Shown here: in pieces, positions 791 to 32,316 of the stretch
How positions within the stretch are numbered: the first letter of the stretch is position 1
How the letters are laid out: the number at the start of each line of letters is the position of its first letter
From: Arbacia lixula
Lineage: Eukaryota > Echinodermata > Echinoidea > Arbacioida > Arbaciidae
Assembly: GCA_963669155.1 (NCBI GenBank)
Contig: OZ022577.1
Coordinates: forward strand, 32,586,006-32,650,005
DNA: 64,000 nucleotides
Direction of reading: 5' to 3'
Position numbers and translations under genes: made by a program
The notes under the pieces: generated by a model
What the model saw: only the letters and a program-made list of their open reading frames with translations
Database searches by the model: none
Told to the model about the DNA's origin: nothing

Positions 791-3506
791 CCTCAGCACT
801 CCTGCAGTCCTCCAGAACGTTCACAGCGGCTATAAAGGAAAGTTACGAAATAAATCACGAAATAAATAGGATGTGCAACTTGATAGACTTGTAACCGTTA
901 TTCAAACTTAACATTTAGATAGCTTTTCGCACTTTCCAGGTTCAAAAAGTGTTATTCTGCTTTGAGTTTTGTTTGTTGATTCGGGCACCATATTTTAATG
1001 TAAGGCCGATAGTAAGATTAGGACCCCTCCTCCACACGCATACAGACGTACACAAATATACAAAATCATTACTATTTAAAGGAAATAAACACACAAATAT
1101 GAACATGATTATCAAGAAAAGTGGAATTAATGCATTTACAGATGCATGATAACTTGCGTTGTATGTAAACTCATCCTGCAGAATGTGCTGTTTTAGTGAT
1201 ATTGTTCTTAGCAAATACAACCGGAATTTCATCCCAGCAGGAATAATGCAAATGCGTTTACTTTTCTTGGCCCTAATCACCTAATTCGGCTTTCCGTGGG
1301 TCGCTATTAGGCTCAGAGATCACCCGCTCCAGACACATGCCAGAACAATAGTTGCGACAGGATCCGAGCAGTTTCAGCATTTAGAACTAATGTTAGAATT
1401 GTGATAGCTTCGATATTCACCCTTTTGCTATTGGATTTAGAACACGGCTTAGATTTGTCTCTGTTTCGAAAAACATCCCTCATGTGAAAAGTTTGACATT
1501 CATGGATTTAAAAATTTACCGACTCTTTGATATTTCATATAACTTTGGAACCAAGTAAAACAGGAAACGGACACACATATAGGCCTACCTTTTAACTTAT
1601 CCATCATAATCGAAACACCCACTGTGTCGAAAACCATTTTTTTTTTACGGTCGATGAATACTGCCCCAGTGCACAGATCGTCATTATTTAATAATCCGTT
1701 TTCAAAATATATATTCGAAACTTCCGTATATTCTTTTATAATCAAATTATGCAGCAAAAAGTATATCGAAGTCTATCATTGTTATCAAGTATTGATTTGA
1801 ACAAGCCTTGCATTGATGTTAAAGACTCACGGAAACAAAGTAATGGGCTATTGTAAATTGCGTAGGAAGATTTAGTACCGGACTTAAAACAGCAGAATGA
1901 GTTCAACCTTTTTAGATTGTGAGGGGAAATTTCACGGAAAATTTTCCACCAACAATCATTTGTAAATGAGGTAGGTGAGAAAAGGTATTATAACTGGTGA
2001 TGAAGCTGTTGATATGTTCATGATACCATCTACCATCTAAACCATCACATTTTTGTCATGCCTTCACGGTTTAAGCATTTTTAATTTGGCTACTACCTCA
2101 AATAAATCAAAGTCTGGATTCAACTGACTGCTAGTCAATCATCATGATAAGACACTTCACAAGACGCCATTTCTGGCTAAACATTACAAAGTATCCATTA
2201 CAGTGTTTGCTTGAGAAATATCAATTTAACGGAAGGGCCCATCTGAGTTGAAATATATTTTGGCAGGACTCCTTTTTTAATTAAATTCCTTTCATTTGAG
2301 TTCAACTGCAAATCTAATATTATCATTACTTCTCCTGAATATTAAAAAGTGTTAATAAATAATTATTAATGAATATTAATGACACTGTACAATACACGGG
2401 TAGTAATTAATTTTCCGCTTCAAGTTTGCCAGTGTGAAATTTAATTACATCACGAATTGCGGGTACTAATTAATTTCAATTGATATCGCCACCTCTACAA
2501 TGTAGCGTACTTTTCCAAGCTTGTTATTTGATTTAACGCGTCATTAACAAAAAAAAAAAGATGCAGTAGATTAAGGCTCAATTTGGTAGCTCCGTGTAAA
2601 TAATCTATTTGATGTTCTTTCGAGAACTGTGCTTCTTGCTGAAGGGGCTCGATTTGGCAATAATTCAGCGAGATCGGAAATCTGGCAGACCTTGTTTGCA
2701 AAGGTGCTATTGCACTAGTAAACCCTCTGCTCTGTTTTGAGCTGCATGATTAATTTTGCCCAACAGTGCAAGAGGGCATAAAGAAACCGAACAGCCAATC
2801 AGTGCATATGCATGAAATGCTACTTTGTTTTGAACGCTCGTTCAAATACCACCATACAGCGCAAACAACGCAAACTTGGATATGGCAAGTTTGATATTTT
2901 CTTTCACAAAATCGATTACTTTTCAGCCATCTAGGATATGAATGATTCACGCTTAAAATGAAATTAAATCGGTTCTTTCATATTTTTTCATCGTTTTTTT
3001 TTTAGTAAATCAGATAAAAACCCATGTTTCCTTTTTTTTTTAAACTTTTACTCTATCGTAAAGTTTTTTTTTTTGAACTCTTGATTTGAGGCTTGTTAGC
3101 CCGTTGTGTGCCAGACAAAACGGCACTCTATGGGATTTATGTGCATTACTTGTGAATAAAGACACATATGGCACATAAAGAGTTAACAAGATTTGTTACC
3201 TTTAAAAAATTATCGAGACTTAAGATGAAACAATCTCGAAGACACAAATCACCAATCATCATTATGTAAATGACAGCTCGACATGCAGATTGAATCATAT
3301 AGCTTTTGGCAGCTATACATTGAGAATGCTATTGAGAATCAACATCAAAATTGTATCCATCATAGGTATATGTAATGTTGCCCATGGTGCCACTCAATGG
3401 ACACATTTTCTTTAAAAACCTGGGCTTGTTGTACTACGATACCAAGCAACTTACTGGCGAAAGCAGTGGCGATGATAACGCACAGGAACACAATGAGGAG
3501 CTTCAT
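791..3506 (-). CDS. Secreted cysteine-containing small peptide gene, copy A (exons 1-2; exon 3 beyond window start)
   Basis: Exon 1 coding part is 3455-3506 and exon 2 is 791-829, both on the minus strand. Exon 1 encodes a 17-residue signal peptide (MKLLIVFLCVIIATAFA) and ends one base into a codon at a consensus donor (CA then GTAAGT). Exon 2 is a 39-nt micro-exon with an AG acceptor and a GTAAGG donor; in phase 1 it reads AVNVLEDCRSAE. The third exon, seen in copies B and C, would lie left of base 1. A TATA box lies about 95 bp upstream of the ATG. Intron 1 holds a MITE and a LINE RT relic. The product is inferred to be a tiny secreted peptide with one Cys in this exon. I recognise no family; function unknown. 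No transcript evidence is available, so the model rests on splice signals, phase agreement and preservation across three copies. Confidence 0.62.
1500..1757 (-). pseudogene. CR1/L2-type LINE reverse transcriptase relic in intron 1, copy A
   Basis: The minus-strand translation contains TGAVFIDRKK, MVFDTVGVSIMMDKLK and WFQSYMKYQRVGKF. This resembles the LINE RT block TGAxFIDLKKAFDTVDHxIL...WFxSYLxxR, with the catalytic-motif region damaged by an insertion. The same relic is at 12824-13081 and about 30390-30597, so it predates the duplication. Nonfunctional. Confidence 0.65.
3095..3187. mobile_element. 93-bp MITE, intron 1 copy A
   Basis: Terminal inverted repeats GTTAGCCCGTTGTGTGCCAG and GTTAACTCTTTATGTGCCA (as reverse complement) enclose about 55 bp with no coding potential. 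Duplicates are at 20474-20567 and 31934-32026. The superfamily is not determined. Confidence 0.6.
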
Positions 3507-3600
3507 GATGAATCGGAAGTTGATGTCTTTTCAAACACTGGAAGAGTTGATTGTCTCGGGAGTTGAAGTGGTCGAATGAATATAAGTATCTGATGCGGCT

Positions 3601-3608
3601 CTTTTATA
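3601..3608 (-). promoter_or_regulatory. TATA box of peptide gene copy A
   Basis: Minus-strand TATAAAAG about 95 bp upstream of the ATG at 3504-3506. It is followed by a pyrimidine-rich 5' UTR that is nearly identical in copies B and C. Transcription probably starts about 30 bp downstream, near 3575. Confidence 0.65.
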
Positions 3609-3672
3609 CGCTTCCCTTGTCTGATCAAAACAAGATACTAAATCACGAAATATGTGCACGCCCTGGTAACTA

Positions 3673-3772
3673 CCGAATGTACAACAATAAAAAAAACATG
3701 CGGTAGACGTATGATAATTTATTTTTGCTTCTCGATTTAAGCATAATTAATCATCAATGTGCAAGTACCATA
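3673..3772. repeat. 105-bp promoter-proximal repeat, single copy in unit A
   Basis: AT-rich unit with the order AACAATAAAA, GCGGTAGAC, TGATTTAAGC, ATAATTAATCAT, TGCAAGTACCATATG. It begins about 65 bp upstream of the TATA box. One copy here, two tandem copies at 21045-21262, two at 32490-32690 and two more at 33130-33357. The homeodomain/POU-like AT core could be regulatory; this is inference. Confidence 0.6.
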
Positions 3773-4009
3773 TGTTTCACGAGAGAGGTTTACGGTACAC
3801 CATGTGTAAAGTCCTGGGAGGACTGAGATGAGAAAACGTGAATAGAATTGAAGGTGAAATGGACAGATGAGAAAGTGGAGATTAGAAAGTAGAGTATTCT
3901 TTCGAAATGAGATTAGTCCTGAAAAGGACTGTAAACCAGAAAGCGTGAAGAGACGGACAGTCAATCTGCCCGAAACGTCGAGTCTACCTCCCTACTTATC
4001 AGCTCTTCA

Positions 4010-4050
4010 AACACTGGAAGAGTTGATTGTCCCGGGAGTTGAAGTGGTAG
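4010..4050 (-). pseudogene. 5' UTR fragment of the peptide gene upstream of copy A
   Basis: Short minus-strand match to the exon 1 untranslated region without the ATG. It is joined on one side to a half copy of the inverted-repeat element seen complete at 32703-33093, and on the other to a hAT family 1 element. Confidence 0.6.
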
Positions 4051-4722: not shown

Positions 4723-4729
4723 CTATTAC

Positions 4730-5611: not shown

Positions 5612-7395
5612 ATTTTATTTCTTCTTTTGTTTCCCCCTTCACAACACTTTTTAGCACTCCACAAATGTATACTTCTTTGTATAAAACAATTTTTTTTGAA
5701 GTTTGTAACAATCTTATTTTTGGTATAACTACTTTGTGGTTACTTCACAACGCTCGTCGCTAACCTCTCCTTCTCCTTCGATTTAATTTCATTTATTTTC
5801 GATTGAAACACCGAAAACTAGAGCTAAAGCAAAAGTGACAAGACAAAGCCACACGGCGTCAGAGACAAACAACTGCAATCATATTTTTTTCTTTCCCAAA
5901 TCTTTACTAAGTCTTTTCTCTGATTTATGGGAATTGCTATTCTATGAAATATATTACCAACAAAAGAGCAGATATAGCGACGAGTACATTTTTTTTTAAA
6001 AATTCGATTCAATTCTTTATTCATTTAACAAACAAAAATAAACAACTTTCATGAACAATGAATATAAGGCATCACCAGAAAGCCGATGGCTTGTGAGATG
6101 TGATAACGTTTATTATGTAATTTATGTACGTATATCATGATCACGTACAAAGGCGGAAATACAACATGACAGATAATTGGTTCTGACATTGCTATCAAAG
6201 AGTACAAAATATCTAAAAAAGTAGATGTCTTTGCACACTTTCGCCGGTTTCGCAAACATATCATGTTTTGTGGTTTGGATAAACCCGTTGTATCAAGTTA
6301 CGTACACTGACGGATTGCATATACAAACTTAAAAAAACAACATTTTAATGCGTTAACCTACTGCTCATCGCATCATGCAACAAAATAGAATTGAACAAAC
6401 CAACATTTATATCACTGTGACATTTTAAGATGATAGCTTCAATCTCTGTACCAGAGACAGAAAGAAGGGGAAACATCAGGAGTAAAAAGTAAAGAACATA
6501 AGACTGTCGTTGTGTGCCTATATTAAATATGTATGTTCATATCAAATCACATTATCAGGCTCGTATTGAAAAACAATTCAACGTTCGTGTTTCAGCGTAT
6601 AAGTATCAAGATAACATAATTCTGGGATTTCGTTGTCTTGGCTTTTTTTTCGTCTTTCTCTTTTCGGCTCGTTGTGATCTAATTATGTGAAGCCTGATCA
6701 TGTAATTATATTTTGGTATATGGTTATATCATATGAAATTGTGGTTTCATTAATTATTTGAATGGAACTGGAGAAAAAAATACGATCGAAAAAAAGAAGA
6801 GTCTGTGTATATGTGCCTATGTGTATGTATGTGTGTGTGTGACGTTGTGTGTCTGTATAAAAAAATGTATACTGCTATCATATCATCAGGTCTTCATTTT
6901 TTTTCTCTGGTACCCTTATTTCCTTTGGCTGCCACTGATAATATAAACTGTAATTAGCCAAACATTACCCACTACATCTCAGTAACCCAAAGTTTAGAAA
7001 AGTAGAAATACGTTACACATATGAACTAATCACAACAAACAAAATTACATCGAGCTGTATTCTTGACGATCATGGTTGCTTTATTTTGTACTTTCAAACA
7101 AAGATACATTTAAATTAAAACACACGTGCACACACATACATAAACACATATACACACACACGCAGTCACAGATATATCCTTTTTTTTATATAAAGAAACA
7201 TAAAGACACACGCAGACACACAGAAACAGTATCATACATAAAATATGCAGAAACACACACACACACACACACACACACATAAAGCAACATTCAATTTGTA
7301 AATTTCTTTATACCAACCTCCACGGCACACATGCACAAATCAAAACGGGCAAAGCATTTAATACAAAAAAAAAGATCGTACAGTATGAGAGTATA
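5612..7395. other. Spacer downstream of peptide gene B (no gene seen)
   Basis: AT-rich sequence conserved in 24335-25740. It contains no reading frame with recognisable domains; the small frames do not keep phase between the two copies. An ACAC-rich microsatellite occupies about 7110-7280, where copy B-C has a shorter version at 25530-25625. Confidence 0.5.
7105..7280. repeat. (AC)n-rich microsatellite
   Basis: Imperfect ACACAC/CACATA tract ending in a pure (CA) run at about 7254-7279. The reading frame across it (poly-THTHTH) is a repeat artefact. Confidence 0.85.
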
Positions 7396-7412
7396 TATCA
7401 TCACCGGAAGCC

Positions 7413-7418
7413 TTTATT
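7413..7418 (-). terminator. AATAAA poly(A) signal, peptide gene copy B
   Basis: Minus-strand AATAAA about 110 bp downstream of the exon 3 stop codon. The matching hexamer is at 25756-25761 in copy C. Confidence 0.55.
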
Positions 7419-7528
7419 TCCACCATGAACTTGACTAATGATGGCATCCGAATTGATCAGATTGGACGCCTCCGCCGATCCACGAGTGTGCTTGCCTGGC
7501 ACTTGAGGGCATGCTTCCTTTACGGAGC

Positions 7529-10500
7529 TCAGCAGGTTCCGCAGCATCCACTCCAGTGGTAGCCGTCCTCGCTCACCATCGTCATCTCATACACCCCTTC
7601 AAAGTACGAACACAGAGAGAGAGAGAGACAGAGAGAATGCCACTTAGAACACAAATCCCATTTACGGAGTTTTTAGAATGTATACTTTATATATCTTGGT
7701 ATTCATGTCTTGTAAGGTATAAGCTTTTCAAATACAATTCATAAATGATATTAAGGATACAGGCAGGTACTGTATAAGGCAAAATTCGAGTTTTACCGCT
7801 TTTGTGGAATGTATTTATGTCGGTATTTATGTCTTCTCATGCACAAGCTTTGCAAATACAATAAACATTCTTTGTGGGAGACTGGTAGGTACTCTCCAGG
7901 GCTAAATTGAAGGTTATAAGTAAACCGGAATGGGGGCGGTTACGAAATAGAAGACTGAACTTTTTTCAATGAAGTCTTCATGGTATTATTTTATGCTAAA
8001 CTCAGGGGTGATATTCATTCAAAATTATATTTTTCAAAGACTTTGTATAAAATATGATTATATTGAGTTGTTACACTGTTGTAGGTGGTAGCACCTGTCA
8101 ACCTGACTGTTTCAGTTGATGTTGGTATTTTTCTCAGTCCTGAGATTGGAGTTGTCAAGTTAATGTTTGCTTCATAGTACGAATTAATGGCATATCAGCC
8201 CCGCGAACCAGTCTATTAACCCCTTCCTTTTAATGATTTTGGGAAAACTATAATTCCACAAGCGTTGATTACATAGAGTCCAAGCTATTCAATATGGAGG
8301 TGGGTCTGTCTACAATAAAGGGATATTTTTTGGCACAACTGAATCATTTGAAATTATGACCACATTGCACCACCAAAATATGACAGAGTTCTGAATTAAT
8401 TTCCTCCAAAATAACTTCAGCTAAAACCCTGCTCTAAATGTTCATTTATTATACATTTCTAAAATGAGCCTGTACATTGTTAACGGGACAGACGAGTGTC
8501 TGTCCCGTTACCAACGTGCTATGGCAAATTTCTACAGGGCCAATTTTCTGAAGCGTACTATTTCCATTTCTATTTAGCCTATTTCTCTCCACTGCTGAAG
8601 GAAGGCCTCCTCATCATTTTTGCATCTTGATCTATCTTGTGCCACACTATTATATTCTCTAATATCGTCGATCCACCTCCTACTTTGTCTGCCTCTTCTT
8701 CTGGTGTTAGCTCTGGGGGTCCAGATTGTTAATTTATATGTCCATCTATCATATTTCCTCCTAGCCAGATGACCACCCACCTCCATTTCTTTGATATAAT
8801 TTCCTGTACTATGTCTGTCCCGTACTTTAGTTTTCTAACTTCATCCCTCTTTGTAACACCAATCATAATTCTTTCCTTAGCCCTTTCGGTTACTCTAAGT
8901 TTTCTCTCCAGTCTCTTAGTTGTGGTCCATGTTTCTGCTCCATACGAGAGCACAGGTATGATGCATTGGTTGAAAATCTGTTCCTTGAGAGAAAGAGGGA
9001 GATTCTCATCACGAAAGATATAATTGAGTTTGCCAAATTTTTCCCAAGCCAACTGGATCCTTCTATCCACTTCCCCTGCTGTTTCATTTTCTATGGAAAT
9101 CTTTTTGCCCAAGTATATGTAGTTTTCATCCTTTTCTACGGTCCTCCCCCAAACTGTGATTTTGTGTTCTTTGAATCTACTGCTCATCATTACCTTTGTC
9201 TTTGTGATATTCATTTTTAGTCCAGCTTTTCTACTTTCTTCACTTAGTTCTCGGATCATTTTCTCCAGTTCCTGAAGTGTATGGCTAAGCAGTAAAATGT
9301 CCTCTGCAAATCTGAGATGTGTCAGGTATTCGCCATCCACCACTATTCCCAATGATAACCAATCAAGGTTTCTGAAGACATCCTCAATAGCTGCAGTAAC
9401 GAAGCTTTGGTAAGATGGGGTCACCTTGTCTTACCCCTTTCAGGATTTTAAAGGCATTTGTTGTAGTGCTTTCTAGATGTACACGGTCACTAGGGTACTT
9501 AAAGATGTTCTTTCTAAGGCATTGCATAATGATTGATGGTCTAGGCTGTCAAATGCCTTTTCGTAATCAACGAAGCCAAGGCAGATGTCAAAACGATATT
9601 CTTTTGCCTTCTCGATTATCTGGCTCAAGGTGTCGAGATGGTCTGATGTTCTATATCCTGTACGAAATCCAGCTTGTTCCTGTGGTTGATTTTCATCAAG
9701 CTGTTTCTCTACCCTATAACAAGAATAATTCTTGTGAAGACTATATATATGAGGCAACAGACTAATGGGCATGTAGTTTTTGGTGTCCTTCATGTCCCCT
9801 TTCTTGAACAGTATGATAACTTTTGATTCGCTCCACTGGGTAGGTACTTGTTCCATTTGCATGATCTTGTTGAACAGTTTTGTTAGGATTGATATGGTGT
9901 CCTCTCCCCCCAACTTTAAAATATCTGCAGTCATTTGGTGCTGCCCTGGAGCCTTTCCCCTTTTCATCTGATCTGAAGCACTCTTCACCTCTTCCTTAAG
10001 TATTGGTGGAAAATCATTTCATTTCTCATTCCAGTCCTCATTTACTCTCCAATCTGCTTGATCTGTGCTATAGATTTCTCTATAGAAGTCCTGAATGGCT
10101 TGAGTAATCTGCTCTTTGTCATTAACTTCTGTGCCATCTTTTGTTTTCAGTGATGACAGAAGCTTTCTACCCATCTCTTACTTTCTGTTAATGATTTTTG
10201 GTCCTTTGTGGTTTTCTAGCACTTCACGTACCATCTTAGTTCTGATCTTTCTCTTTCGCTTTCTTCTCATCTTGCGAATTGTTCTATTCAGCTCTGTATA
10301 TTCAACTTGGTCACGTTTTGATGTCTGTCTGGATGGCTGAAGGGCTTTCCTTTTCTTATTCAGTCTATGTATCTCCTCTCTTTCCTTGTCTGTATTGTTT
10401 CAATCAATTTTCTCCCCCTTAGCTAGCTTTTCCGCTTCATCCATAATTTTTCTGGCTATTTGCTCATAGAGAGTGTCTAGTGGTTGGTTCACCATTGAAT

Positions 10501-13500
10501 CTGCCAGCACTTCAAACCTATTGTGTAACTCAAGCTGGAACTGCTCCTGCTTACTTGAACATGTTGAAAGCAGTTCTAAATTAATATGTCTTCTCCTAGG
10601 CTTCCTTACCCTTCTCACTCTTTCCATTCTCTTATCCTTACTTTAGCTCTAACAAGTCGGTGGTCACTGCCTGTATCCACCTTTGGTACTGTTCCCACAT
10701 CCATCAAGATTCTACGATGATCGCAAATAATGCAATCTATCAAGTTGTGAGTTGCTGAATTTGGGCTTTCCCACGACCAGTAGTTTTTGGTAGGTTTTTT
10801 GAAGTATGTATTGCCAATTGTCAAGTTTCTGCTTGAGGCAAACTCCAGTAGTCTTTCTCCCCTTTCATTCCTTTCTCCTATCCCGTATGGGCCTATACCA
10901 CTTTCCTCGTCATCCTTTCTCAGTCCAACCTTGGCATTGAAATTACCCATAAGTAACGTAAACGTTGTGGATTCTGTTGTCATTATGTTGTCAATTTTAT
11001 TATAAAATCTTCAACGACTTCACCTGCTTGAACTGGTAGTTGGTGCATATGCTTGAATAATTTAAGTGTATGGCTACTACTGATATGTACTTTCAGAAAA
11101 GCTATCCTGTCTGATACATTTATATTCCATGATATTTTCCCTCAACCTCTTTATTCACAAGAAATCCAACTCCATTGAAACTTTTGTTTGTTGCTGATGT
11201 TGTGAACAGTGTATGTCCACACTTTGATAACTTGATGAGATTCGCTGGTCTCCTAGTTTCAGCTAATCCTATTATGTGCCATGTTACATCATCTATTTCC
11301 TCCAGTAGAGCATCTAGGTCTTCCTCTATTCTCAATGTCCTTACATTATATGTACAAATAAATAAATCTGTATGGCTCGTGATGATTCTTCTATCAGATT
11401 TGGGTCCTCCTTTGGCTTGACACCAGAAGTATCAGCAGTCACCGATTTCCCAGCTCTATTTGTAAAGCTAGGCCCGTTCTGGCCATGGGCGTTACGACCT
11501 CTCTTTATTCTCAAATCCATAAATGATGAAGGGTGTGTGCCATACTCTACCACACTGGCAAGGTGGATTGGTAGGGGTCGAATGAGTTCCTAGGACTCCA
11601 ACCCGCAGTAAAGGAACTCTTAAGTCAGATCTGGTTTTTAATTCCGACAGGGGGTCCGGCACCCCCTTCTCACCCGATAGCTGATGCCCTAGCGTGGGTT
11701 ACCCGGATTATTCACCGAGCACTCGACCGTGTAACAAGTAGCACTGGATTACTAGATGACCAGTGGCAGGACTAACCTGACCTCACAAAACCTTGTAAAG
11801 TGCAAACAATACATTTGTTTGATATTTTATTATTATTGACTGGTTTATTTAAGAGACAAAAAGAATTGAAATTTAAGAGATTCATGCAAATGTTACAGTA
11901 AATGTAACAGAAATGTACCCATTACTGTAGACAGACATGAAAATACACACAGAAATGGAGCATATTAATGCACATTATGCACAATTTTGATCTTTGGCTA
12001 GAAAAAATGAATCCCATTCACCCCTCTTTCTCAATATTTATGTGGTGGAATTTTATACTGTTGTCATGGAATTAAAAGAAAAAAAAAGTGAATATTTCCT
12101 TACCCTCAGCACTCCTGCAGTCCTCCATAACGTTCACAGCGGCTAAAAAGGAAAGTTACGAAATAAATCACGTAATAAATAGGATGTGCAACAAGATAGA
12201 CTTGTAACTGTTATTCAAACTTAACATTTAGATAGCTTTTCGCACTTTCCAGGTTCAAAAAGTGTTATTTTGCTTTGAATTTTGTTTGTTGATTCGGGCA
12301 CCATATTTTAATGTCAGGCCGATAGTAAGATTATGACCCCCCCCCCCCCCCTCCTCCACACGCATACAGACGTACACAAATATACAAAATCATTACTATT
12401 TAAAGGAAATAAACACACAAATATGAACATGATTATCAAGAAAAGTGGAATTAATGCATTTACAGATGCATGATAACATGCGTTGTATGTAAACTCAATC
12501 TGCAGAAAGTGCTGTTTCAGTGATATTGTTCTTAGCAAATACAACCGGAATTTCATCCCAGCAGGAATAATGCAAATGCGTTTACTTTTCATGGCCCTAA
12601 TCACCTAATTCGGCTTTCCGTGAGTCGCTATTTGGCTCAGTGATCACCCGCTCCAGACACATGCCAGAACAATAGTTGCGACAGGATCCGAGCAGTTTCA
12701 GCATTTAGAACTAATGTTAGAATTGTGTTAGCTTCGATATTCACCCTTTTGCTATTGGATTTATAGCACGGCTTAGAATTGTCCCTCTTTCGAAAAACAC
12801 CACCCATGTGAAAAGTTCGACATTCATTGATTTAAAAATTTACCGACTTTTTGATATTTCATATAACTTTGGAACCAAGTAAAACAGGAAACGGACACAC
12901 ATATACGCCTACCTTTTAACTTATCCATCATAATCGAAACACCCACTGTGTCGAAAACCATTTTTTTTTTACGGTCGATGAATACTGCCCCAGTGCACAG
13001 ATCGTCATTATTTAATAATCCGTTTTCGAAATATTTATTCGAAACTTCCGTATATTCTTTTATAATCAAATTATGCAGCAAAAAGTATACCGAAGTCTAT
13101 CATTGTTATCAAGTATTGATTTGAACAAGCCTTGCATTGATGTTAAAGACTCACGGAAACAAAGTAATGGGCTATTGTAAATTGCGTAGGAAGACTTAGT
13201 ACCGGACTTAAAACAGCAGAATGAGTTCAACCTTTTTAGATTGTGAGGGGAAATTTCAAGGGAAATTTTCCACCAACAATTATTCGTAAATGAGGTAGGT
13301 GAGAGAAGGTATTATAACTGGTGATGAAGCTGTTAATATGTTCATGATACCATCTACCATCTAAACCATCACATTATTGTCATGCCTTCACGGTTTAAGC
13401 ATTTTTAATTTGGCTACCACCTCAAATAAATCAAAGTCTGGATTCAACTGAGTGCTAGTCAATCACGCCATTTCTGGCTAAACATTACAAAGTATCCATT

Positions 13501-19500: not shown

Positions 19501-20881
19501 AGAGGACCGAGACTATCAGAGGAACAGAGCGCCGCTTGCTCATTAGCTATACCAAGCCACATGGTAAAGTCTCATCCCAGACCGTATCAAGATGGATCAA
19601 AGTGACATTAGCAGGCGCCGGGATTGACACTTGCGTGTACAAGTCACATTCTACAAGATCGGCTGCAGCATCGGCAGCCAACAGAGCAAGCGTGCCTATT
19701 TCTAACATCATGAACCAGGCAGGATGGTCAAGGGAGAGAACCTTCCAACAATTCTATAACAAGCCGCTTGCTGATAGTGGAGGAACTGATTTCTCGCAAG
19801 CTATCCTACAACAGTAGTACAATTGAGTTTTCACAAGGTATGTACAAAATGCATTTTGTACATGTTCAATACCTGTCATAAAGTAATGATATTCATGAGT
19901 CCTTCTTGCAAGAACCTGCACATACATGTCCCTTTGCGGACAGTGCACTTCAAAATGTGTTCGCTGATCTTCAAAATCTCAATTAGTCTCCTCTCGAGAC
20001 GAACGAAATAAAATTAAAAGCTCAAACGATAACTTACCACTTTGAAGTTTGAGCTGAATTTTATGAGGGAGTTGAGTGAGGAGATTAATTGCCCTCCTCT
20101 CCCTCCCTTAGAAAACGAAATTAACTCTAACAATTTGCTATTACATTACTTCAAGCCAATGTTTGTTCAATCAGCTGAATTATAATAGCTGATATTTTTT
20201 CCTAAACAGCGATCACATTTTGATGCTCCGAAGAATGAGTGCGCATGCACGAGGCGGGATCTCAATTAATCTCCTCACTCAACTCCCTCATAAAATTCAG
20301 CTCAAACTTCAAACTGGTAAGTTATCGTTTGAGCTTTCAATTAAATCGGTTCTTTCATATATTTTTTCATCGTTTTTTTTTTTTTAGTAAATCAGATAAA
20401 AACCCATGTTTCCTTTTTTTTTTTAAACTTTTACTCTATCGTAAATTTTTTTTGAACTCTTGATTTGAGGCTTGTTAGCCCGTTGTGTGCCAGACAAAAC
20501 GGCACCCTGTGGGATTTGTGTGCATTAATTGTGAATAAAGACACATATATGGCACATAAAGAGTTAAACAAGATTTGTTACCTTTAAAAAATTATCGAGA
20601 CTTAAGATGAAACAATCTCGAAGACACAAATCACCAATCATGATTATGTAAATGACAGCTTGACATGTAGATTGAATCATATCTAGCTTTTGGCAGTTAT
20701 ACATGTGCTATTAAGAATCAACATCAAAATTGTATCCGTCATAGGTATAAGTAATGTTGCCCATGGTGCCACACAATAGACACATTTTCTTTAAAAACCT
20801 GGCCTTGTATACGGTACCAAGCAACTTACAGGCGAAAGCCGTGGCGATGATAACGCACAGGAACACAATGAGGAGCTTCAT
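7529..20881 (-). CDS. Secreted cysteine-containing small peptide gene, copy B (three exons)
   Basis: Exons are 20830-20881 (52 nt), 12104-12142 (39 nt) and 7529-7596 (68 nt, with TGA stop). Phases are 1 and 1, so the three exons form one open frame of about 52 residues. Exon 1 encodes the same 17-residue signal peptide as copies A and C. Exon 2 differs from copy A by Leu to Met. Exon 3 begins with Gly-Val-Tyr-Glu and ends HWSGCCGTC then stop. The predicted mature part is about 35 residues with four Cys (C...CC..C), enough for two disulfides. An AATAAA (minus strand) sits at 7413-7418. Intron 1 is enlarged by the 6-kb DIRS insertion and intron 2 carries the RTE LINE. Whether it is still expressed with these insertions is unknown. 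A host-defence, signalling or venom-type role is possible, but nothing in the sequence decides it. Confidence 0.62.
8480..11790 (-). mobile_element. RTE-clade LINE retrotransposon, nearly full-length, inactive
   Basis: Reading minus strand, the order is 5' region and N-terminus (11790-11341), AP-type endonuclease (11335-10615), linker (10627-10400), reverse transcriptase (9988-8729) and C-terminal domain (8786-8574), ending at a hairpin near 8480-8518. Stops and frameshifts break the ORF. It lies in intron 2 of peptide gene B. Copies are at 1-480 (partial) and 26850-29325 (endonuclease deleted), so insertion predates the segmental duplication. Confidence 0.85.
8574..11553 (-). pseudogene. RTE-type endonuclease/reverse transcriptase ORF (broken)
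   Basis: The endonuclease part shows the GNFNAKVG block, the RNERGERLLEFA block and a C-terminal DTGSDHRLVRAKV. The reverse transcriptase shows FKKGDMKDTKNYMPISLL, QEQAGFR and the RTE-type DYEKAFDSLDH block. The FADD catalytic box reads FAED (in RFAEDILLL), with Glu in place of the first conserved Asp. Downstream come GLKMNITKTKVM, YIYLGKKIS, PVLSYGAETWT and RRRGRQSRRWIDD, all typical of RTE-like C-termini. At least four frame breaks separate these pieces. A dead element by sequence. Confidence 0.85.
11791..12103. other. Intron 2 sequence of peptide gene B, left of exon 2
   Basis: AT-rich, closely matching 481-790 and 29330-29643. No reading frame or repeat of note beyond the duplication. 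Confidence 0.5.
12824..13081 (-). pseudogene. CR1/L2-type RT relic in intron 1, copy B
   Basis: Duplicate of the relic at 1500-1757, with the same FIDRKK...FDTVGVSIMMDKLK signature. It lies left of the DIRS insertion. Confidence 0.65.
14280..14345 (+). repeat. DIRS left inverted terminal repeat
   Basis: TTATTTCGTTCGTCTCGAGA followed by GGAGACTAATTGAGATCC and the CGCGCATGTGCAC block. Its first 40 bases recur inverted in the internal complementary region, and bases 26-66 recur inverted in the right terminus. Confidence 0.85.
15817..15968 (-). repeat. 3' LTR of the TRIM-like element
   Basis: 152-bp LTR with TG..CA ends, preceded (minus strand) by a polypurine tract at about 15969-15981. Confidence 0.8.
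16706..16859 (-). repeat. 5' LTR of the TRIM-like element
   Basis: 154-bp LTR. The minus-strand sequence immediately downstream, TGGTGTCAGAAG, is a plausible tRNA primer-binding site. Confidence 0.8.
16904..18859 (+). pseudogene. DIRS reverse transcriptase-RNase H-methyltransferase-like ORF (two frameshifts)
   Basis: Frame 1 (16904-17314) has GGRLKQFYNNWKKITSD and the RPKKDGRLRLILDLSDLN block. A 1-nt loss near 17296 shifts to 17307-17906, with MASVDLQDAYYSIPI, LPNGLTSAPRLFTK and the catalytic YLDD (residues 85-88 of that segment). A second loss near 17828 shifts into 17845-18859. That part contains RNase H (IDASGDGWGA, NYLEIL, IRSDNTTAV, NVDADYESR) followed by PEIDIFASRLN, WLPDPNAESVDAF and FYAFPPF. 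The last three match the Dam-like methyltransferase region known from DIRS polyproteins. Catalytic residues of RT and RNase H remain, but the frame does not. Confidence 0.88.
18823..19817 (+). pseudogene. DIRS tyrosine recombinase (one frameshift)
   Basis: The N-terminal SAM-like part (18823-19215) contains LRKSTQRQYQVCWTKWIQFC. About 8 extra bases near 19213 cause a frameshift, and the catalytic part continues to 19817. In that part I see Arg of SAQRVQTL (residue 42), His-x-x-Arg of KSHSTRSA (152/155), Trp178 and the nucleophile Tyr188 in FQQFYNK. This is the tyrosine recombinase catalytic set that DIRS elements use instead of an integrase. The start overlaps the RT ORF in another frame, as in other DIRS elements. 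Confidence 0.88.
19976..20090 (+). repeat. DIRS internal complementary region
   Basis: 19976-20015 is the reverse complement of the element's left end. 20016-20090 is the reverse complement of its right end. The two halves abut without a gap, as needed for the circular-junction template model proposed for DIRS replication. Confidence 0.85.
20215..20338 (+). repeat. DIRS right inverted terminal repeat
   Basis: Contains GTGCGCATGCACGAGGCGGG and ATCTCAATTAATCTCCTC, inverse to the left terminus. The outer part (20262-20338) is inverse to 20016-20090. It ends GGTAAGTTATCGTTTGAGC. Confidence 0.8.
20474..20567. mobile_element. 93-bp MITE, intron 1 copy B
   Basis: Same inverted-repeat element as at 3095-3187, carried along by the segmental duplication. 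Confidence 0.6.
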
Positions 20882-20975: not shown

Positions 20976-20983
20976 CTTTTATA
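20976..20983 (-). promoter_or_regulatory. TATA box of peptide gene copy B
   Basis: Same minus-strand TATAAAAG at the same distance from the ATG (20879-20881) as in copy A. The flanking GCGTA and GAGCCGCAT are retained. Confidence 0.65.
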
Positions 20984-24168: not shown

Positions 24169-24330
24169 GTGGAACTCATTGAGCAGTGACCTGCAGTCAT
24201 CTGTAACTATCCACACATTCAAGCACAGATTAAAGTGCAACCTGATCAACGTATGTCGTACAGTTCCTGCTGACGCATCTCGTTTATTCCATCAATTAAC
24301 TTTCAGAACAATATCACATTATTTCCTATA
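24163..24330 (+). pseudogene. C-terminal fragment of CR1/L2-type LINE ORF2 (second copy)
   Basis: Duplicate of 5438-5611 with the same WNSLSSDLQSS...FKHRLKCNL reading. Confidence 0.55.
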
Positions 24331-24334
24331 GATT

Positions 24335-25750
24335 TTATTTCTTCTTTTGTTTCCCCCTTCACAACACTTTTTAGCACTCCACAAATGTATACTTCTTTGT
24401 ATAAAACAATTTTTTTTAAGTTAGTAACAATCTTATTTTTGGTATAACTACTTTGTGGTTACTTCACAACGCTCGTCGATAACCTCCCCTTCTGCTCCGA
24501 GTTAATTTCATTTATCTTCGGTTGAAACACCAAAAACTAGAGCTAAAGCAAAAGTGAATAGACAAAGCCACACGGCGTCAGAGACAAACAACTGCAATCA
24601 TATTTTTTTCTTTCCCAAATCTTTACTAAGTCTTTTCTGTGATTTATGGGAATTGCTATTCTATGAAATATATTACCTACAAAAGAGCAGATATAGCGAC
24701 GAGTACATTTAAAAAAAAAAATCGATTCAATTCTTTATTCATTTAACAAACAAAAATAAACAACTTTCATGAACAATGAATATAAGGCATCACAAGAAAG
24801 CCAATGGCTTGTGAGATGTGATAACCTTTATTATATAATTTCATGTACGTATATTATGATCACGTACAAAGGCGGAAATATAACATGACAGATAATTGGT
24901 TCTGACATTGCTATCAAAGAGTACAAAATATCCAAAAAAGTAGATGTCTTTGCACACTTTCACTGGTTTCGCAAACATATCATGTTTTGTGGTTTGGATA
25001 AACCCGTTGTATCAAGTTACGTACACTGACGGATTGCATATACAAACTTTAAAAAAAAAATTAATGCGTTAACCTACTGCTCATCGCATCATGCAACAAA
25101 ATAGAATTGAACAAACCAACATTTATACCACTGTGACATTTTAAGATGCTAGTTTCAATCTCTGTAAAAAAAAAAAAAAAAAAGGAAATGCACATGGCAT
25201 GTGTGATTGACAGTTCTTTCTTACCAGAGGCAGAAAGAAGGGGAAACATCAAGAGTAAAAAGTAAAAACATAAGACCGTCGTTGTGTGCCTATATTAGAT
25301 ATGTATGTTCATATTAAATCACATTATCAGGCTCGTATTGAAAAACAATTCAACATTCGTGTTTCAGCGTATAAGTATGAAGATAACATAATTCTCGGTT
25401 TTCGTTGTCTTGGCTTTTTTTTTTCGTCTTTCTCTTTTCGGCTCGTTGTGATCTAATTATGTGAAGCCTGATCATGTAATTATATTTTGGTATATGGTTG
25501 TATCAGATGAAATTGTGGTTTTTACATATAAAGAAACACAAAGACACACGCAGACACACAGAAACAGTATCATACATATATGACAAATATGCAGAAACAA
25601 ACACACACACACACACATAAACATAAAGCAACATTCAATTTGTAAATTTCTTTATACCAACCTCCACGGCACACATGCACAAATCAAAACGAGCAAAGCA
25701 TTTAATACAAATAAAAGATCGTACAGTATGAGAGTATATATCATCACCGG
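24335..25750. other. Spacer downstream of peptide gene C (no gene seen)
   Basis: AT-rich match to 5612-7395 with a poly(A/T) tract near 25166 and a shortened AC microsatellite near 25530-25625. Nothing else recognised. Confidence 0.5.
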
Positions 25751-25755
25751 AAGCC

Positions 25756-25761
25756 TTTATT
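25756..25761 (-). terminator. AATAAA poly(A) signal, peptide gene copy C
   Basis: Minus-strand AATAAA at the same distance from the exon 3 stop as in copy B, in a 3' UTR that is almost identical between the two copies. Confidence 0.55.
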
Positions 25762-25871
25762 TCCACCATGAACTTGACTAATGATGGCATCCGAATTGAT
25801 CAGATTGGACGCCTCCGCCGATCCACGAGTGTGCTTGCCTGGCACTTGAGGGCATGCTTCCTTTACGGAGC

Positions 25872-25950
25872 TCAGCAGGTTCCGCAGCATCCACTCCAGT
25901 GGTTGCCGTCCTCGCTCACCATCTTCATCTCATACACCCCTTCAAAGTAC

Positions 25951-25992
<42 letters not shown>

Positions 25993-28900
25993 CCACTTAG
26001 AACACAAATCCCATTTACGGAGTTTTTAGAATGTATACTGTATATATCTTGGTATTCATGTCTTGTAATGTATAAGCTTTTCAAATACAATTCATAAATG
26101 ATATTAAGGATACAGGCAGGTACTGTATAAGGCAAAATTCGAGTTTTACCGCATTTGTGGAATGTATTTATGTCGGTATTTATGTCTTTTCATGCACAAG
26201 CTTTGCAAATACAATAAACATTCTTTATGGGAGACTGGTAGGTACTCTCCAGGGCTAAATTGGAGGTTATATCCTAAATATCGGTTTATAAGTAAACCGG
26301 AATGGGGGCGGTTACGGAATAGAATACTGAACTTTTTCAATGAAGTCTTCATGGTATTATTTTATGCTAAACTCAGGGGTGATATTCATTCAAAATGATA
26401 TTTTTCAAAGACTTTGCATAAAATATGATTATATTGAGTTGTTACACTGTTGTAGGTGGTAGCACCTGTCAACCTGACTGTCTCAGTTGATGTTGATATT
26501 TTTCTCAGTCCTGAGATTGGAGTTATCAAGTTAATGTTTGCTTCATAGTGCGAATTACTGGCATATCAGCCCTGCGAACCAGTCTATTAACCACTTCCTT
26601 TTAATGATTTTGGGAAAACTATAATTCCACAAGCGTTGATTACATAGTGTCCAAGCTATTCAATGTGGAGGTGGGTCTGTCTACAATAAAGGGATATTTT
26701 TGGCATAACTGAATCATTTGAAATTATGACCACATTGCACCACCAAATTATGACAGAGTGTTGAATTAATTTCCTCCAAAATAACTTGAGCTAAAACCCT
26801 GCTCTGAATGTTTATTTATTCTATATTTCTAAAATAATCCTCTACAAATTTACCATAGCACATTGGTAACGGGACAGACGAGTGTGTTACAAACTCGTCT
26901 GTCCCGTTACCAACGTGCTATGGCAAATTTCTACAGGGCAAATTTTCTGAAGCGTACTATTTCCATTTCTATTTAGCCTATTTCTCTCCACTGCTGAAGG
27001 AAGGCCTCCTCGTCATTTTTTCATCTTGATCTATCTTGTGCCTTTCGTTTCCATGTCACACTATTATATTCTCTAATATCGTCAATCCACCTCCTACTTT
27101 GTCTGCCTCTTCTTCTGGTGTTAGCTCTGGGGGTCCAGATTGTTAATTTATATTTCCATCTATCATATTTCTTCCTAGCCAGATGACCAGCCCACCTCCA
27201 TTTCTTTGATATAATTTCCTGTACTATGTCTGTCCCGTACTTAAGTTTTCTTTCTCATATCTTGGTTTCTTACTTTGTCCCTTTTTGTAACACCAATCAT
27301 AATTCTTTCCATAGCCCTTTCGGTTACTCTAAGTTTCTCTCCAGTCTCTTGGTTGTGGTCTATGTTTCTGCTCCATAAGAGTGATGCATTGGTTGAAAAT
27401 CTGTTTCTTGAGAGAAAGAGGGAGCTTCTCATCACGAAAGATATAATTGAGCTTGCCAAATTTTGCCCAAGCCAACTGGATCCTTCTATCCACTTCCCCT
27501 GCTGTTTCATTTTCTATGGAGATCTTTTTGCCCAAGTATATGTAGTTGTCATCCTTTTCTACGGTCCTCCCCCAAACTGTGATTTTGTGTTCTTTGAATC
27601 TACTGCTCATCATTACCTTTGTCTTGTGATATTCATTTTTAGTCCAGCTTTTCTACTTTCTTCACTTAGTTCTCGGATCATTTTCTTCAGTTCCTGAGGT
27701 GTATGGCTAAGCAGTAAAATGTCCTCTGCAAATCTGAAATGTGTCAGGTATTCGCCATCCACCACTATTCCCAATGATAGCCAATCAAGGTTTCTGAAGA
27801 CATCCTCAATAGCTGCAGTGACGAAGCTTTGGTGAGATGAGGTCCCCTTATCTTACCCCTTTCAGGATTTTAAACGCATTTGTTGTAGTGCTTTCTAGAT
27901 GTACACGGGCACTAGAGTCCTTATAGATGTTCTTAATTAGGCCAATGTACTTTCCATCTGTGATCTGCTTTTCTAAGGCATTGAATAATGACTGATGGTC
28001 TAGGCTGTAAAATGCCTTCTCGTAATCAAAGAAGCCAAGGCAGATGTCAAAACGGTATTCTTTTGTCTTCTCGATTATCTGGCTCAAGGTGTCGAGATGG
28101 TCTGATGTTCTATATCCTGTACGAAATCCAGCTTGTTCCTGTAGTTGATTTTCATCAAGCTGTTTCTCTACCCTATAGCAAGAAGAATTCGTGTGAAGAT
28201 TTTATATATATGGGGCAACAGACTAATGGGCCTGTAGTTTTTGGTGTCCTTCATGTCCCCTTTCTTGAACAGTATAACTTTTGATTCGCTCAACTGGGTA
28301 GGTACTTGTTCCATTTGCATGATCTTGTTGAACAGTTTTGTTAGGATTGATATGGTGTCCTCTCCCCCAACTTTAAAATATCTGCAGTTATTTGGTGCTG
28401 CCCTGGAGCCTTTCCCCTTTTCATCTGATCTAAAGCACTCTTCACCTCTTCATTAAGTATTGGTGGAAAATCATTTCATTTCTCATTCCAGTCCTCATTT
28501 ACTCTCCAATCTGCTTGATCTGTGCTATAGATTTCTCTATAGAAGTCCTGAATGGCTTGAGTAATCTGTTCTTTGTCATTAACTTCTGTGCCATCTTTTG
28601 TTTTCAGTGATGACAGAAGCTTTTTACCCCTCTCTAACTTTCTGTTAATGATGTTTGGTCCTTTGTGGTTTTCTAGCACTTCACGTATCATCTTAGTCCT
28701 GATCTTTCTCTTTCGCTTTCTTCTCATCTTGCGAATTGTTCTATTCAGCTCTGTATATTCAACTTGGTCACGTTTTGATGTCTGTCTGGATGGCTTAAGG
28801 GCTTTCCTTTTCTCATTCAGTCTATGTATCTCCTCTCTTTCCTTGTCTGTATTGTTTCAATCAATTTTCTCCCCCTTAGCTAGCTTTTCCGCTTATCCAT

Positions 28901-31900
28901 AAATAAATCTGTATGGCTCGTGATGATTCTTCTATCAGATTTGGGTCCTCCTTTGGCTTGACACCAGAAGTATCAGCAATCACCGATTTCCTAGCTCTAT
29001 TTGTAAACCTGGGCCCGTTCTGGCCATGGGCGTTACGACCTCTCTTTGTTCTCAAATACATAAATGATGAAGGGTGTGTGCCATACTCTACCACACTGGC
29101 AAGGTGGATTGGTAGGGGTCGAATGAGTTCCTAGCACTCCAACCCGCAGTAAAGGAACTCTTAAGTCAGATCTGGTTTTTAATTCTGACAGGGGGTCCGG
29201 CACCCCCTCCTCACCCGAGAGCTGATGCCCTAGCGTGGGTTGCCCGGATTAGTCGCCGAGCACTCGACCGTGTAACAAGTAGCACTGGATTACACGATGA
29301 CCAGTGGCAGGACTAGCCTGACCTCACAAAACCTTGTAAAGTGCAAACAATACATTTCTTTGATATTTTATTATTATTGACTGGTTTATTTAAGAGACAA
29401 AAAAGAATTGAAATTTAAGAGATTCATGCAAATGTTACAGTAAATATAACAGAAATGTACCCATTACTGTAGACAGACATGAAAATACACACAGAAATGG
29501 AGCATATTAATGCACATTATGCACAATTTTGATCTTTGGCTAGAAAAAATGAATCCCATTCACCCCTCTTTCTCAATATTTATGTGGTGGAATTTTATAC
29601 TGTTGTCATGGAATTAAAAGAAAAAAAGTGAATATTTCCTTACCATCACCACTCCTGCAGTCCTCCAGAACGTTCACAGCGGCTCTAAAGGAAAGTTACG
29701 AAAAAGTTGTGATCACGTAATAAATAGGATGTGCAACATGATAGACTTGTAACCGTTATTCAAACTTAACATTGAGATAGCTTTTCACACTTTCCAGGTT
29801 CAAAAAGTGTTATTCTGCTTTGAGTTTTGTTTGTTGATTCGGGCACCATATTTTAATGTAAGGCCGATAGTAAGATTATGGCCCCCCCCCCCCTCCTCCA
29901 CACGCATACAGACGTACACAAATATACAAAATCATTACTATTTAAAGGAAATAAACACACAAATATGAACATGATTATCAAGAAAAGTGGAATTAATGCA
30001 TTTACAGATGCATGATAACTTGCGTTGTAAGTAAACTCATCCTGCAGAATGTGCTGTTTCAGTGATATTGTTCTTAGCAAATACAACCGGAATTTCATCC
30101 CAGCAGGAATAATGCAAATGCGCTTACTTTTCATGGCCCTAATCACCTAATTCGGCTTTCCGTGGGTCGCTATTTGGCTCAGGGATCACCCGCTCCAGAC
30201 ACATGACAGAACAATAGTTGCGACAGGATCCGAGCAGTTTCAGCATTTAGAACTAATGTTAGAATTGTGATAGCTTCGATATTCACCCTTTTGCTATTGG
30301 ATTTAGAGCACGGCTTAGACTTGTCCCTGTTTCGAAAAACACCCCCATGTGAAAAGTTTGACATTCATGGAATTAAAAATTTACCGAGTTTTTGTATAAA
30401 ACAGGAAACGGACACACATATAGGCCTACCTTTTTAACTTATCCATCATAATCGAAACATCCACTGTGTCGAAAACCATTTTTTTTACGGTCGATGAATA
30501 CTGCCCCAGTGCACAGATCGTCATTATTTAATAATCCGTTTTCGAAATATTTATTCGAAACTTCCGTATATTCTTTTATAATCAAATTATGCAGCAAAAA
30601 GTATATCGAAGTCTATCATTGTTATCAAGTATTGATTTGAACAAGCCTTGCATTGATGTTAAAGGCTCACGGAAACAAAGTAATGGGCTATTGTAAATTG
30701 TGTACGAAGATTTAGTACCGGACTTAAAAACAGCAGAATGAGTTCAACCTTTTTAGATTGTGAGGGGAAATTTCACGGGAAATTTTCCACCAACAATTAT
30801 TTGTAAATAAGGTAGGTGAGAGAAGGTATTATAACTGGTGATGAAGCTGTTAATATGTTCATGATACCATCTACCATCTAAACCATCACATTTTGTTATG
30901 CCTTCACGGTTTAAGCATTTTTAATTTGGCTACTACCTCAAATAAATCAAAGTCTGGATTCAACTGAGTGCTAGTCAATCATCATGATAAGACACTTCAC
31001 AAGACGCCATTTCTGGCTAAACATTACAAAGTATCCATTACAGTGTTTGCTTGAGAAATATCAACTTTATCGGAAGGGCCCATCTAAGTTGAAATATATT
31101 TTGGCAGGACCTTTTTTAATTAAATTCCTTTCATTTGAGTTCAACTGCAAATCTAATATTATCATTAGTTCTCCTGAATATTAAAAAGTGTTAATAAATA
31201 ATTATTAATGAATATTAATGACACTGTACAATTCACGGGTAGTAATTAATTTTCCGCTTCAAGTTTGCCAGTGTGAAATTTCATTACATCACGAATTGCG
31301 GGTACTAATTAATTTCAATTGATATCGCCACCTCTACAATGTAGCGTACTTTTCCAAGCTTGTTATTTGATTTAACGCGTCATTAAGCCTTAATAAAAAA
31401 AAAAAAGATGCGGTAGATTAAGGCTCAATTTGGTAGCTCCGTGTAAATAATCTATTTGATGTTCTTTCGAGAACTGTGCTTCTTGCTGAAGGGGCTCGAT
31501 TTGGCAATAATTCAGCAAGATCGGAAATCTGGCAGACCTTGCTTGCAAAGGTGCTATTGCACTAGTAAACCCTCTGCTCTGTTTTGAGCTGCATGGTTAA
31601 TTTTGCCCAACAGTGCAAGAGGGCATAAAGAAACCGAACAGCCAATCAGTGCATATGCATGAAATGATGCTTTGTTTTGAACGCTCGTGCAAATACCACC
31701 ATACAGCGCAAACAACGCAAACTTGGATATGGCAAGTTTGATATTTTCTTTCACAAAATTGATTACTTTTCAGGCATCTAGGATATGAATGATTCATGCT
31801 TAAAATGAAATTAAATCGGTTCTTTCATATATTTTGATCGTTTTTTTTTTAGTAAATCAGATAAAAACCCCATGTTTCCTTTTTTTAACTTTTACTCTAT

Positions 31901-32316
31901 CGTTAAGTTTTTTCAACTCTTGATTTGAGGCTTGTTAGCCCGTTGTGTGCCAGACAAAACGGCACTCTGTGGGATTTATGTGCATTACTTGTGAATAAAG
32001 ACACATATGGCACATAAAGAGTTAACAAGACTTGTTACCTTTAAAAAATTATCGAGACACAAATCACCAATCATAATTATGTAAATGACAGCTTGACATG
32101 CAGACTGAATCATATAGCTTTTGGCAGCTATACATGTGCTATTGAGAATCAACATCAAAATTGTATCCATCATAGGTATATGTAATGTTGCCCATGGTGC
32201 CACTCAATGGACACATTTTCTTTAAAAACCTGGGCTTGTTGTACTACGATACAAAGCAACTTACTGGCGAAAGCCGTGGCGATGATAACGCACAGGAACA
32301 CAATGAGGAGCTTCAT
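25872..32316 (-). CDS. Secreted cysteine-containing small peptide gene, copy C (three exons, most intact)
   Basis: Exons are 32265-32316, 29644-29682 and 25872-25939, with consensus donors (GTAAGT, GTAAGG), AG acceptors and matching phase 1 junctions. The signal peptide is identical in residues to copies A and B. Relative to copy A, exon 2 changes Ala-Glu to Gly-Asp. Relative to copy B, exon 3 changes Thr to Lys and Tyr to Asn. The C-terminal CCGTC and the stop are unchanged. A TATA box is at 32411-32418 and an AATAAA at 25756-25761. Intron 1 (about 2.6 kb) has no DIRS, so it shows the pre-insertion state. Intron 2 holds an RTE LINE copy that has lost about 0.9 kb of its endonuclease region. 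The predicted product is a secreted peptide of about 52 residues with no recognised family. Confidence 0.65.
25957..25989. repeat. (GA)n microsatellite beside exon 3 of copy C
   Basis: Pure AG dinucleotide run inside intron 2, about 18 bp from the exon 3 acceptor. It is shorter and interrupted in copy B (7614-7634). Confidence 0.85.
26848..26930. repeat. Long hairpin at the 3' end of the LINE copy
   Basis: TTTACCATAGCACATTGG and TAACGGGACAGACGAGT pair with ACTCGTCTGTCCCGTTACC and AACGTGCTATGGCAAA around a 9-nt loop. The corresponding hairpin in the other copy (8480-8518) is reduced to the inner 15 bp. Confidence 0.8.
26850..29325 (-). mobile_element. RTE-clade LINE, copy with endonuclease deleted
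   Basis: Matches 8480-11790 but jumps at about 28893 from the linker to the 5' region. This removes roughly 0.92 kb that corresponds to 10440-11365, including the whole endonuclease. The junction has a short CAT/CCATA overlap. RT fragments remain, for example the SRFKEHKITVWGRTVEKD block in 27329-27613 and the FFDYEKAFYSLDHQ block in 27848-28087, with the same FAED box as the other copy. Confidence 0.82.
30390..30597 (-). pseudogene. CR1/L2-type RT relic in intron 1, copy C
   Basis: Third copy of the relic, shortened by a small deletion near 30395 that removes the WFQSYM part. Clearly alignable with 12850-13081. Confidence 0.55.
31934..32026. mobile_element. 93-bp MITE, intron 1 copy C
   Basis: Same inverted-repeat element as at 3095-3187. 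Confidence 0.6.

Follow-up and report, generated by a model that had tools for sequence, protein, structure and literature searches.

A likely tandem array of minute genes for a secreted disulfide peptide in Arbacia lixula

A 64,000-nucleotide (nt) stretch of the genome of the echinoid Arbacia lixula (GenBank assembly GCA_963669155.1, contig OZ022577.1, forward-strand positions 32,586,006 to 32,650,005), hereafter the window, in whose numbering all positions are given, carries a small three-exon gene in three copies arranged head-to-tail on the minus strand. The array continues past the left edge of the window, and thus comprises at least three copies. An initial annotation, made from the letters alone, had described minus-strand exons of 52, 39 and 68 coding nt with phase-1 junctions, and these are found at the lengths and phases described. 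The three copies that it reported are present as well, but only two of the three are complete in the window, exon 3 of gene 1 lying off the left edge, and the last exon, said to end in HWSGCCGTC and a stop codon, is present but found twice, in genes 2 and 3. The exons, together with a retroelement that interrupts gene 2, are as follows.

3455-3506 (minus): gene 1, coding part of exon 1, 52 nt, encoding MKLLIVFLCVIIATAFA plus one base
791-829 (minus): gene 1, exon 2, 39 nt, with one Cys; exon 3 falls outside the window on the left
20830-20881 (minus): gene 2, coding part of exon 1, 52 nt
12104-12142 (minus): gene 2, exon 2, 39 nt
7529-7596 (minus): gene 2, coding part of exon 3, 68 nt, ending in HWSGCCGTC and a stop
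32265-32316 (minus): gene 3, coding part of exon 1, 52 nt
29644-29682 (minus): gene 3, exon 2, 39 nt, with a weak acceptor
25872-25939 (minus): gene 3, coding part of exon 3, 68 nt, ending in HWSGCCGTC and a stop
14282-20338 (plus): DIRS-like retroelement of 6,057 bp in intron 1 of gene 2; the site is empty in units 1 and 3

Given the in-frame splice sites, both introns are phase 1 and the frame is open for 52 residues in genes 2 and 3, the spliced precursors being MKLLIVFLCVIIATAFASAVNVMEDCRSAEGVYEMTMVSEDGYHWSGCCGTC for gene 2 and MKLLIVFLCVIIATAFATAVNVLEDCRSGDGVYEMKMVSEDGNHWSGCCGTC for gene 3; the 159 coding bases of each gene are spread across 6.4 to 13.4 kb. The repeat unit of 11.3 kb first described holds between genes 1 and 2, but the distance from gene 2 to gene 3 is 17.5 kb, because gene 2 holds the insertion at 14282-20338. 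This element matches reverse transcriptase, RNase H, tyrosine recombinase and, weakly, a Dam-like domain, with a coding stretch split across several frames, and inverted repeat pairs connect its start and end regions; on these pairs and the domain matches, we take it to be of the DIRS type. By splice-site scores calculated with approximate weights, all sites of gene 2 are in order (its exon 3 acceptor, at 6.1, is in the top 5.5% of all AG) and gene 1 has strong sites at both visible exons, while the in-frame exon 3 acceptor scores 6.1 and 6.8 in its two copies. Of the earlier statement that splice sites are consensus and junctions phase 1 in every complete copy, the phases are borne out, but the exon 2 acceptor of gene 3 is compromised (see below).

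The exons are flanked by the signals expected of a transcribed gene, listed here.

3601-3608 (minus): TATAAAAG TATA box of gene 1, with an initiator-like TTCATTC at 3580-3574; the transcription start would lie near 3577
20976-20983 (minus): TATAAAAG TATA box of gene 2
32411-32418 (minus): TATAAAAG TATA box of gene 3
7395-7528 (minus): 3′ untranslated region (UTR) of gene 2 as measured, 134 nt identical to gene 3, with 53% guanine plus cytosine (GC) in 7402-7528 and AATAAA at 7418-7413
25745-25871 (minus): 3′ UTR of gene 3, with 53% GC and AATAAA at 25761-25756

The TATA box begins 102 nt upstream of the ATG in all three genes, and in each the start of the box is followed, about 30 nt further on, by an initiator-like TTCATTC. 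At the other end, AATAAA lies 111 nt past the stop codon in both copies of exon 3, so that the TATA box and nearby AATAAA of the initial annotation are confirmed wherever they can be seen (three of three genes and both visible 3′ ends, respectively). As a separate observation, partial copies of the exon 1 5′ UTR are located on the minus strand at 4051-4003, 22748-22667 and 33445-33364, on the margin of a dispersed repeat that is found upstream of the genes; they end before the signal peptide, and two of them extend into ATGAAGCTCCTCA. Junctions of the same repeat at 21.3k, 45.4k, 46.1k and 50.9k are without 5′ UTR copies.

Base composition provides evidence for this gene that is independent of the reasoning behind the initial annotation. 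The window is mostly GC-poor (less than 40% GC in 26 of 32 two-kb windows), whereas the coding exons reach 56-57% GC (56.6% for the coding sequence of gene 2), and exon 3 together with its 3′ UTR forms a GC island whose 200-base flanks have 34-35% GC and which is equalled by 0.5-0.6% of the other 195-nt windows (positions 1-33000, retroelement excluded). In gene 2, GC content is 77% at third codon positions versus 47% and 45% at the other two (P 0.0003, 20,000 permutations). This signal stems from exon 1 (14 of 17 third positions) and exon 3 (18 of 23), and is barely visible in exon 2 (9 of 13, versus 8 of 13 and 6 of 13).

Chance controls point the same way. Scanning the 64 kb for a first exon, defined as an ATG, a hydrophobic start, a signal-peptidase-like end and a GTRAG donor, returned seven places, four in one GT-repeat tract and three corresponding to exon 1 of this gene; when a TATA box was added to the pattern, only the latter three were left, compared to a mean of 0.067 and a maximum of one in 60 dinucleotide shuffles, a result that is supportive rather than independent, as the pattern was composed post hoc from the gene. 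Internal open exons flanked by phase-1 introns, with sites equal to or better than those of exon 2, are expected 0.005 times in the 3.4 kb of gene 1 (200 shuffles) and 0.05 times in the 13.2 kb of gene 2 (100 shuffles). Taken together, these signals and the composition make it probable that the gene is real.

As to its product, the natural reading of the spliced frame, judged from sequence, is the one first proposed, namely a secreted disulfide peptide of about 35 mature residues. The first 17 residues, with a hydrophobic core and an AFA end, resemble a signal peptide according to a simple rule, not a dedicated predictor. The predicted mature peptide has 35 residues and four Cys in a C-x20-CC-x2-C arrangement, one Cys coming from exon 2; it is acidic, with a charge at pH 7 of -5.5 and -4.5 and an isoelectric point of 4.1 and 4.3 in genes 2 and 3, respectively. 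The computed average masses of the reduced peptides are 3,808.2 and 3,754.1 Da, corresponding to about 3,804 and 3,750 Da with two disulfides formed. In neither of these genes do the 35 residues contain an adjacent K/R pair, and because there is no dibasic site, exon 2 should be retained in the mature peptide. On sequence grounds alone, the cleavable signal, small size and even Cys count that are generic to secreted disulfide peptides are all present and, if the gene is real, its product is very probably secreted.

Expression of this gene could proceed as follows. RNA polymerase II would start about 31 bases past the start of TATAAAAG and synthesize a transcript of probably some 0.4 kb, in which exons of 52, 39 and 68 coding bases would be joined across the two phase-1 introns. 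The resulting 52-residue precursor would enter the secretory pathway via its 17-residue signal peptide, which would be cut after Ala-Phe-Ala, thereby releasing, without dibasic processing, an acidic peptide of 35 residues whose four cysteines would form two disulfides. The peptide would then most likely serve as an exported effector in a venom, salivary, mucus or immune-type secretion, its dose being increased by the gene copies. The presence of several copies in tandem, with a strong core promoter, suggests an abundant product, and its acidic charge makes a membrane-lytic antimicrobial peptide less likely. Since exon 2 is 39 nt long and lies between phase-1 introns, its skipping would keep the frame and drop one Cys. 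Given secretion, the chances that the peptide is an effector acting outward are about even. Overall, we tentatively favour a tandem gene array for a secreted, acidic 35-residue C-CC-C peptide that is most likely an exported effector, while granting that this composite reading falls somewhat short of an even chance.

A phase-1 intron following the signal exon is common in secreted proteins. Among the papers listed on C-CC-C cysteine frameworks, most concern cone snails, and the pattern is presumably that of conotoxin framework XXIV. Framework XXIV is placed under superfamily B3, the same number being also used for a different pattern (PMC4278219). Genes of eight conotoxin superfamilies have three exons that approximately correspond to signal, pro-region and mature peptide, with introns above 3 kb, and those of the T-superfamily have two phase-1 introns and an exon 2 of 45 nt (PMC3862624). 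The T-superfamily genes are the nearest documented layout. They share with the genes described here the three exons, an exon 1 made of 5′ UTR and signal and ending one base into a codon, the phase-1 introns, a short symmetrical exon 2 (45 nt there, 39 nt here), long introns and a vicinal CC in exon 3. The architecture is thus alike, but membership fails on Cys pattern and processing: T-superfamily peptides have framework V (CC-CC) or X (CC-CXPC), in contrast to C-CC-C with one Cys in exon 2, and exon 2 is not a discarded pro-region here. A basic cleavage site precedes the mature peptide in the T-superfamily, whereas there is none in the 35 residues here. In addition, introns exceed 3 kb there, compared to 2.6 kb for intron 1 of gene 3. 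In Conus betulinus, conotoxin genes mainly have three exons and average 12 kb in length, with 92-bp exons and an enrichment of transposons in the introns adjoining the mature peptide (PMC10561478). Whole conotoxin genes have 42.76% GC, compared to 56% for the coding exons of the array, whose surroundings are mostly below 40%.

More distant likenesses exist outside cone snails. Ant venom-peptide genes are arranged in tandem and have two or three exons, their promoters being the least conserved part (PMC10800049). Compared by description only, the myrmicitoxin genes of ants share with the array local tandem duplication of small secreted-peptide genes; the promoter likeness is weak, with 4.5-8% differences here versus block averages of 3.4-5.5%. 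Mussel myticalin genes are multigenic and have three exons with a phase-1 second intron (PMC5577615), features that are all found here, but their exon 1 is solely 5′ UTR and they encode a linear cationic peptide cut at a dibasic site, whereas the present one is acidic and cysteine-bearing. A cationic cysteine-rich antimicrobial peptide was also considered and rejected, as the net charge is negative (-5.5 and -4.5 at pH 7). Schistosome-type micro-exon genes contain a series of symmetrical micro-exons. What the array has in common with them is that a gene for a secreted protein contains a symmetrical exon of small size (PMC4350168). Among phase-1/1 exons with good sites, which were those scanned, one micro-exon rather than a series was seen: candidates of 15-199 nt number one in the introns of gene 3 (acceptor 3.8, donor 7) and, at a stricter acceptor cut-off of 8, two in those of gene 2, one of which lies inside the DIRS-like element.

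Several observations weigh against the reading favoured here. First, roles as a hormone, pheromone or structural component fit nearly as well as that of an exported effector. A real secreted peptide acting as an endogenous signal (hormone, pheromone, gamete factor), or as a structural or gland matrix component, would be backed by the same gene evidence; an acidic, non-cationic product disfavours a classical antimicrobial peptide, and neither signal nor structural roles require a dibasic processing site. On the other hand, whole-gene tandem duplication is generally less usual for hormones. No present evidence separates endogenous from outward-acting roles, and we regard the endogenous one as possible, if on balance unlikely.

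Second, comparison of the copies does not provide the support that had been expected from it. Unit-to-unit BLAST blocks have 89-96% identity including gaps, in introns and spacers as well as in exons, and the substitution rate is 3.4-5.5%, depending on the block and the pair compared. The coding exons of gene 2 differ from those of gene 3 at 6 positions, versus 6.3 expected from random segments of the same blocks (P 0.60), and all 6 differences alter a residue; one silent difference was noted, in the signal exon of gene 1. The three-fold conservation invoked in the initial annotation therefore does not stand, as the surrounding DNA is equally alike: coding divergence at background level means that the identity of the copies reflects recent duplication, not conservation, and selection on the peptide is not demonstrated by this comparison of sequences. 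Across the whole messenger RNA (mRNA), genes 2 and 3 nevertheless show 8 differences versus 14.3 in random segments (P 0.028), with no gap columns in exons and UTRs (P 0.018) and 0 of 134 differences in the 3′ UTR versus 4.3 expected (P 0.002), although all four statistics (mRNA, coding, 3′ UTR and gaps) were taken from a single pair of copies. Genes 2 and 3 are likewise identical over the 149 intron bases that directly follow exon 2 (each with two differences from gene 1), and gene conversion could be the source of both identical stretches. In the 112-nt promoter stretch, the pairwise differences are 5, 9 and 8 (4.5-8%, versus block averages of 3.4-5.5%). Hence, the gene model keeps the support of its GC-rich exons, third-position GC and chance controls but loses its conservation argument, and its standing is due to composition and signals, not to the identity of the 3′ UTR.

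The state of individual copies is a further concern. The exon 2 acceptor reads TTTATAG/CC in gene 1, TTTTTAG/CC in gene 2 and TTTAGAG/CC in gene 3 (the slash marks the junction); in the latter, the in-frame site (GAG) scores 3.9 versus 7.3 for the TAG two bases upstream, whose use would shift the frame to MKLLIVFLCVIIATAFAKPL followed by a stop and give a product of 20 residues. Gene 2, for its part, is burdened by the 6-kb element in intron 1. These features raise the possibility of a decaying family, in which the recently duplicated gene has become relaxed or dead: the acceptor would put gene 3 out of frame, and the retroelement would weigh on gene 2. Coding differences at the background rate, the exon 2 acceptor of gene 3, the DIRS-like insertion in gene 2 and the exon 1 fragments at 4051-4003, 22748-22667 and 33445-33364 would all be explained in this way. 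Yet the frames of genes 2 and 3 are open, their exons and UTRs are free of gaps (P 0.018) with an identical 3′ UTR (P 0.002), and gene 1 has strong sites at its two visible exons, which makes decay improbable. An undescribed secreted C-CC-C family, built from exons whose shortness defeats ordinary gene callers and evolving as a venom-like array, with the 3′ UTR kept, the mature part varying freely from copy to copy and an in-frame three-Cys isoform arising by skipping of exon 2, is a doubtful though conceivable reading.

Third, searches returned no homologue. No Pfam family was matched at E up to 10 by two versions of the peptide (the exact peptide of gene 2 not being among them), no chain of the PDB was matched at E up to 10 by one precursor and its mature part, and four peptide strings had no occurrence in a full-text search of 5.39 million papers. 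In addition, an exon as weak as exon 2 of gene 3 is expected 0.77 times (6.3 kb, 200 shuffles), and exon 3 alone is unremarkable: of nine terminal-exon candidates in the window (acceptor, at least three Cys and a poly(A) signal), a count made without shuffle control, two are this exon and seven are rivals. One could thus suppose that there is no gene, and that the signals lined up by chance in intergenic DNA that was duplicated, consistent with the lack of a Pfam or PDB homologue, the expectation of 0.77 for a weak exon 2, the seven further terminal-exon candidates and a post-hoc choice of exons that flatters the model. Against this, separate signals concur, namely the TATA spacing, exon 1 (0.067 expected), exon 2 of genes 1 and 2, third-position GC (P 0.0003) and the GC islands, so that chance is a very unlikely explanation. 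Least credible is a last exon in another frame, where an acceptor 11 bases downstream would lead to a 61-residue frame across the 3′ UTR and a longer secreted protein: its 61 codons are open in both copies (about 7404-7586 and the gene 3 counterpart, minus strand) and take in most of the 134 nt over which the two copies are identical, but it was dismissed because its acceptor scores -8.3 versus 6.1 and 6.8 for the in-frame one and there is little codon-position signal past the overlap (57, 50 and 50% GC), and the joined product has no match in Pfam or PDB.

Other searches and features of the window may be mentioned. Bacterial relatives were rejected: a back-translated HWSGCCGTC pattern matched four stretches of genome contigs, which were taken as chance, since the frame of three of them (L001, L003 and L004, mutually alike) meets a stop within six residues of the motif, and stops break the fourth too. 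Viral contigs gave no match, either for the exact 27-mer encoding HWSGCCGTC or for the degenerate pattern. A literature search for tandem short-exon peptide genes overlooked by gene prediction yielded no match, and one for the CCXXC pattern led to work on coffee plants. On the minus strand, 8729-11010 and 27848-28856, in intron 2 of genes 2 and 3, contain fragments of a non-long-terminal-repeat (non-LTR) endonuclease and reverse transcriptase, for which the Pfam basis is the gene 2 pieces only; as the non-LTR stretch is mostly alignable between units, the insertion probably preceded the duplication. The best candidate in the window for a more distant exon copy, a match of exon 3 to 9810-9860 (plus strand; E 0.002, 7 of 17 residues), with a counterpart at 28265-28318 (E 0.077), was discounted as the reverse side of the reverse-transcriptase frame 9473-10018. 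Elsewhere, a 395-codon open frame at 56882-58069 (plus strand) matches a C2H2 zinc finger weakly, under the curated threshold, and belongs to no other clear family, and a TTAGGG-like tract is found at 56671-56742. Two minisatellites are present, a CTGGCTGGCAGGCAG-type array at 39600-40558 and a strongly G-rich GGGAGAGAG-type array at 62229-63970, with a GC skew of 0.88 in 62001-64000. The window has no Rfam match at gathering score and no transfer RNA according to ARAGORN (bacterial code).

Small disulfide-peptide genes are common in venoms and secretions, and are easily overlooked by gene finders. The locus likely holds a real, small tandem gene for a secreted peptide, whose anatomy is upheld while the claim of its conservation is not, and it is plausibly a further example of an already known kind of gene, with no match in Pfam or PDB. 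If transcribed, it would add one more small disulfide scaffold, with no change to the view of how such genes work. It would also be a clean multi-copy secreted-peptide gene of a class easily lost by ab initio annotation, and would indicate that duplication and composition (micro-exons rich in GC within AT-rich DNA) suffice for finding such arrays.

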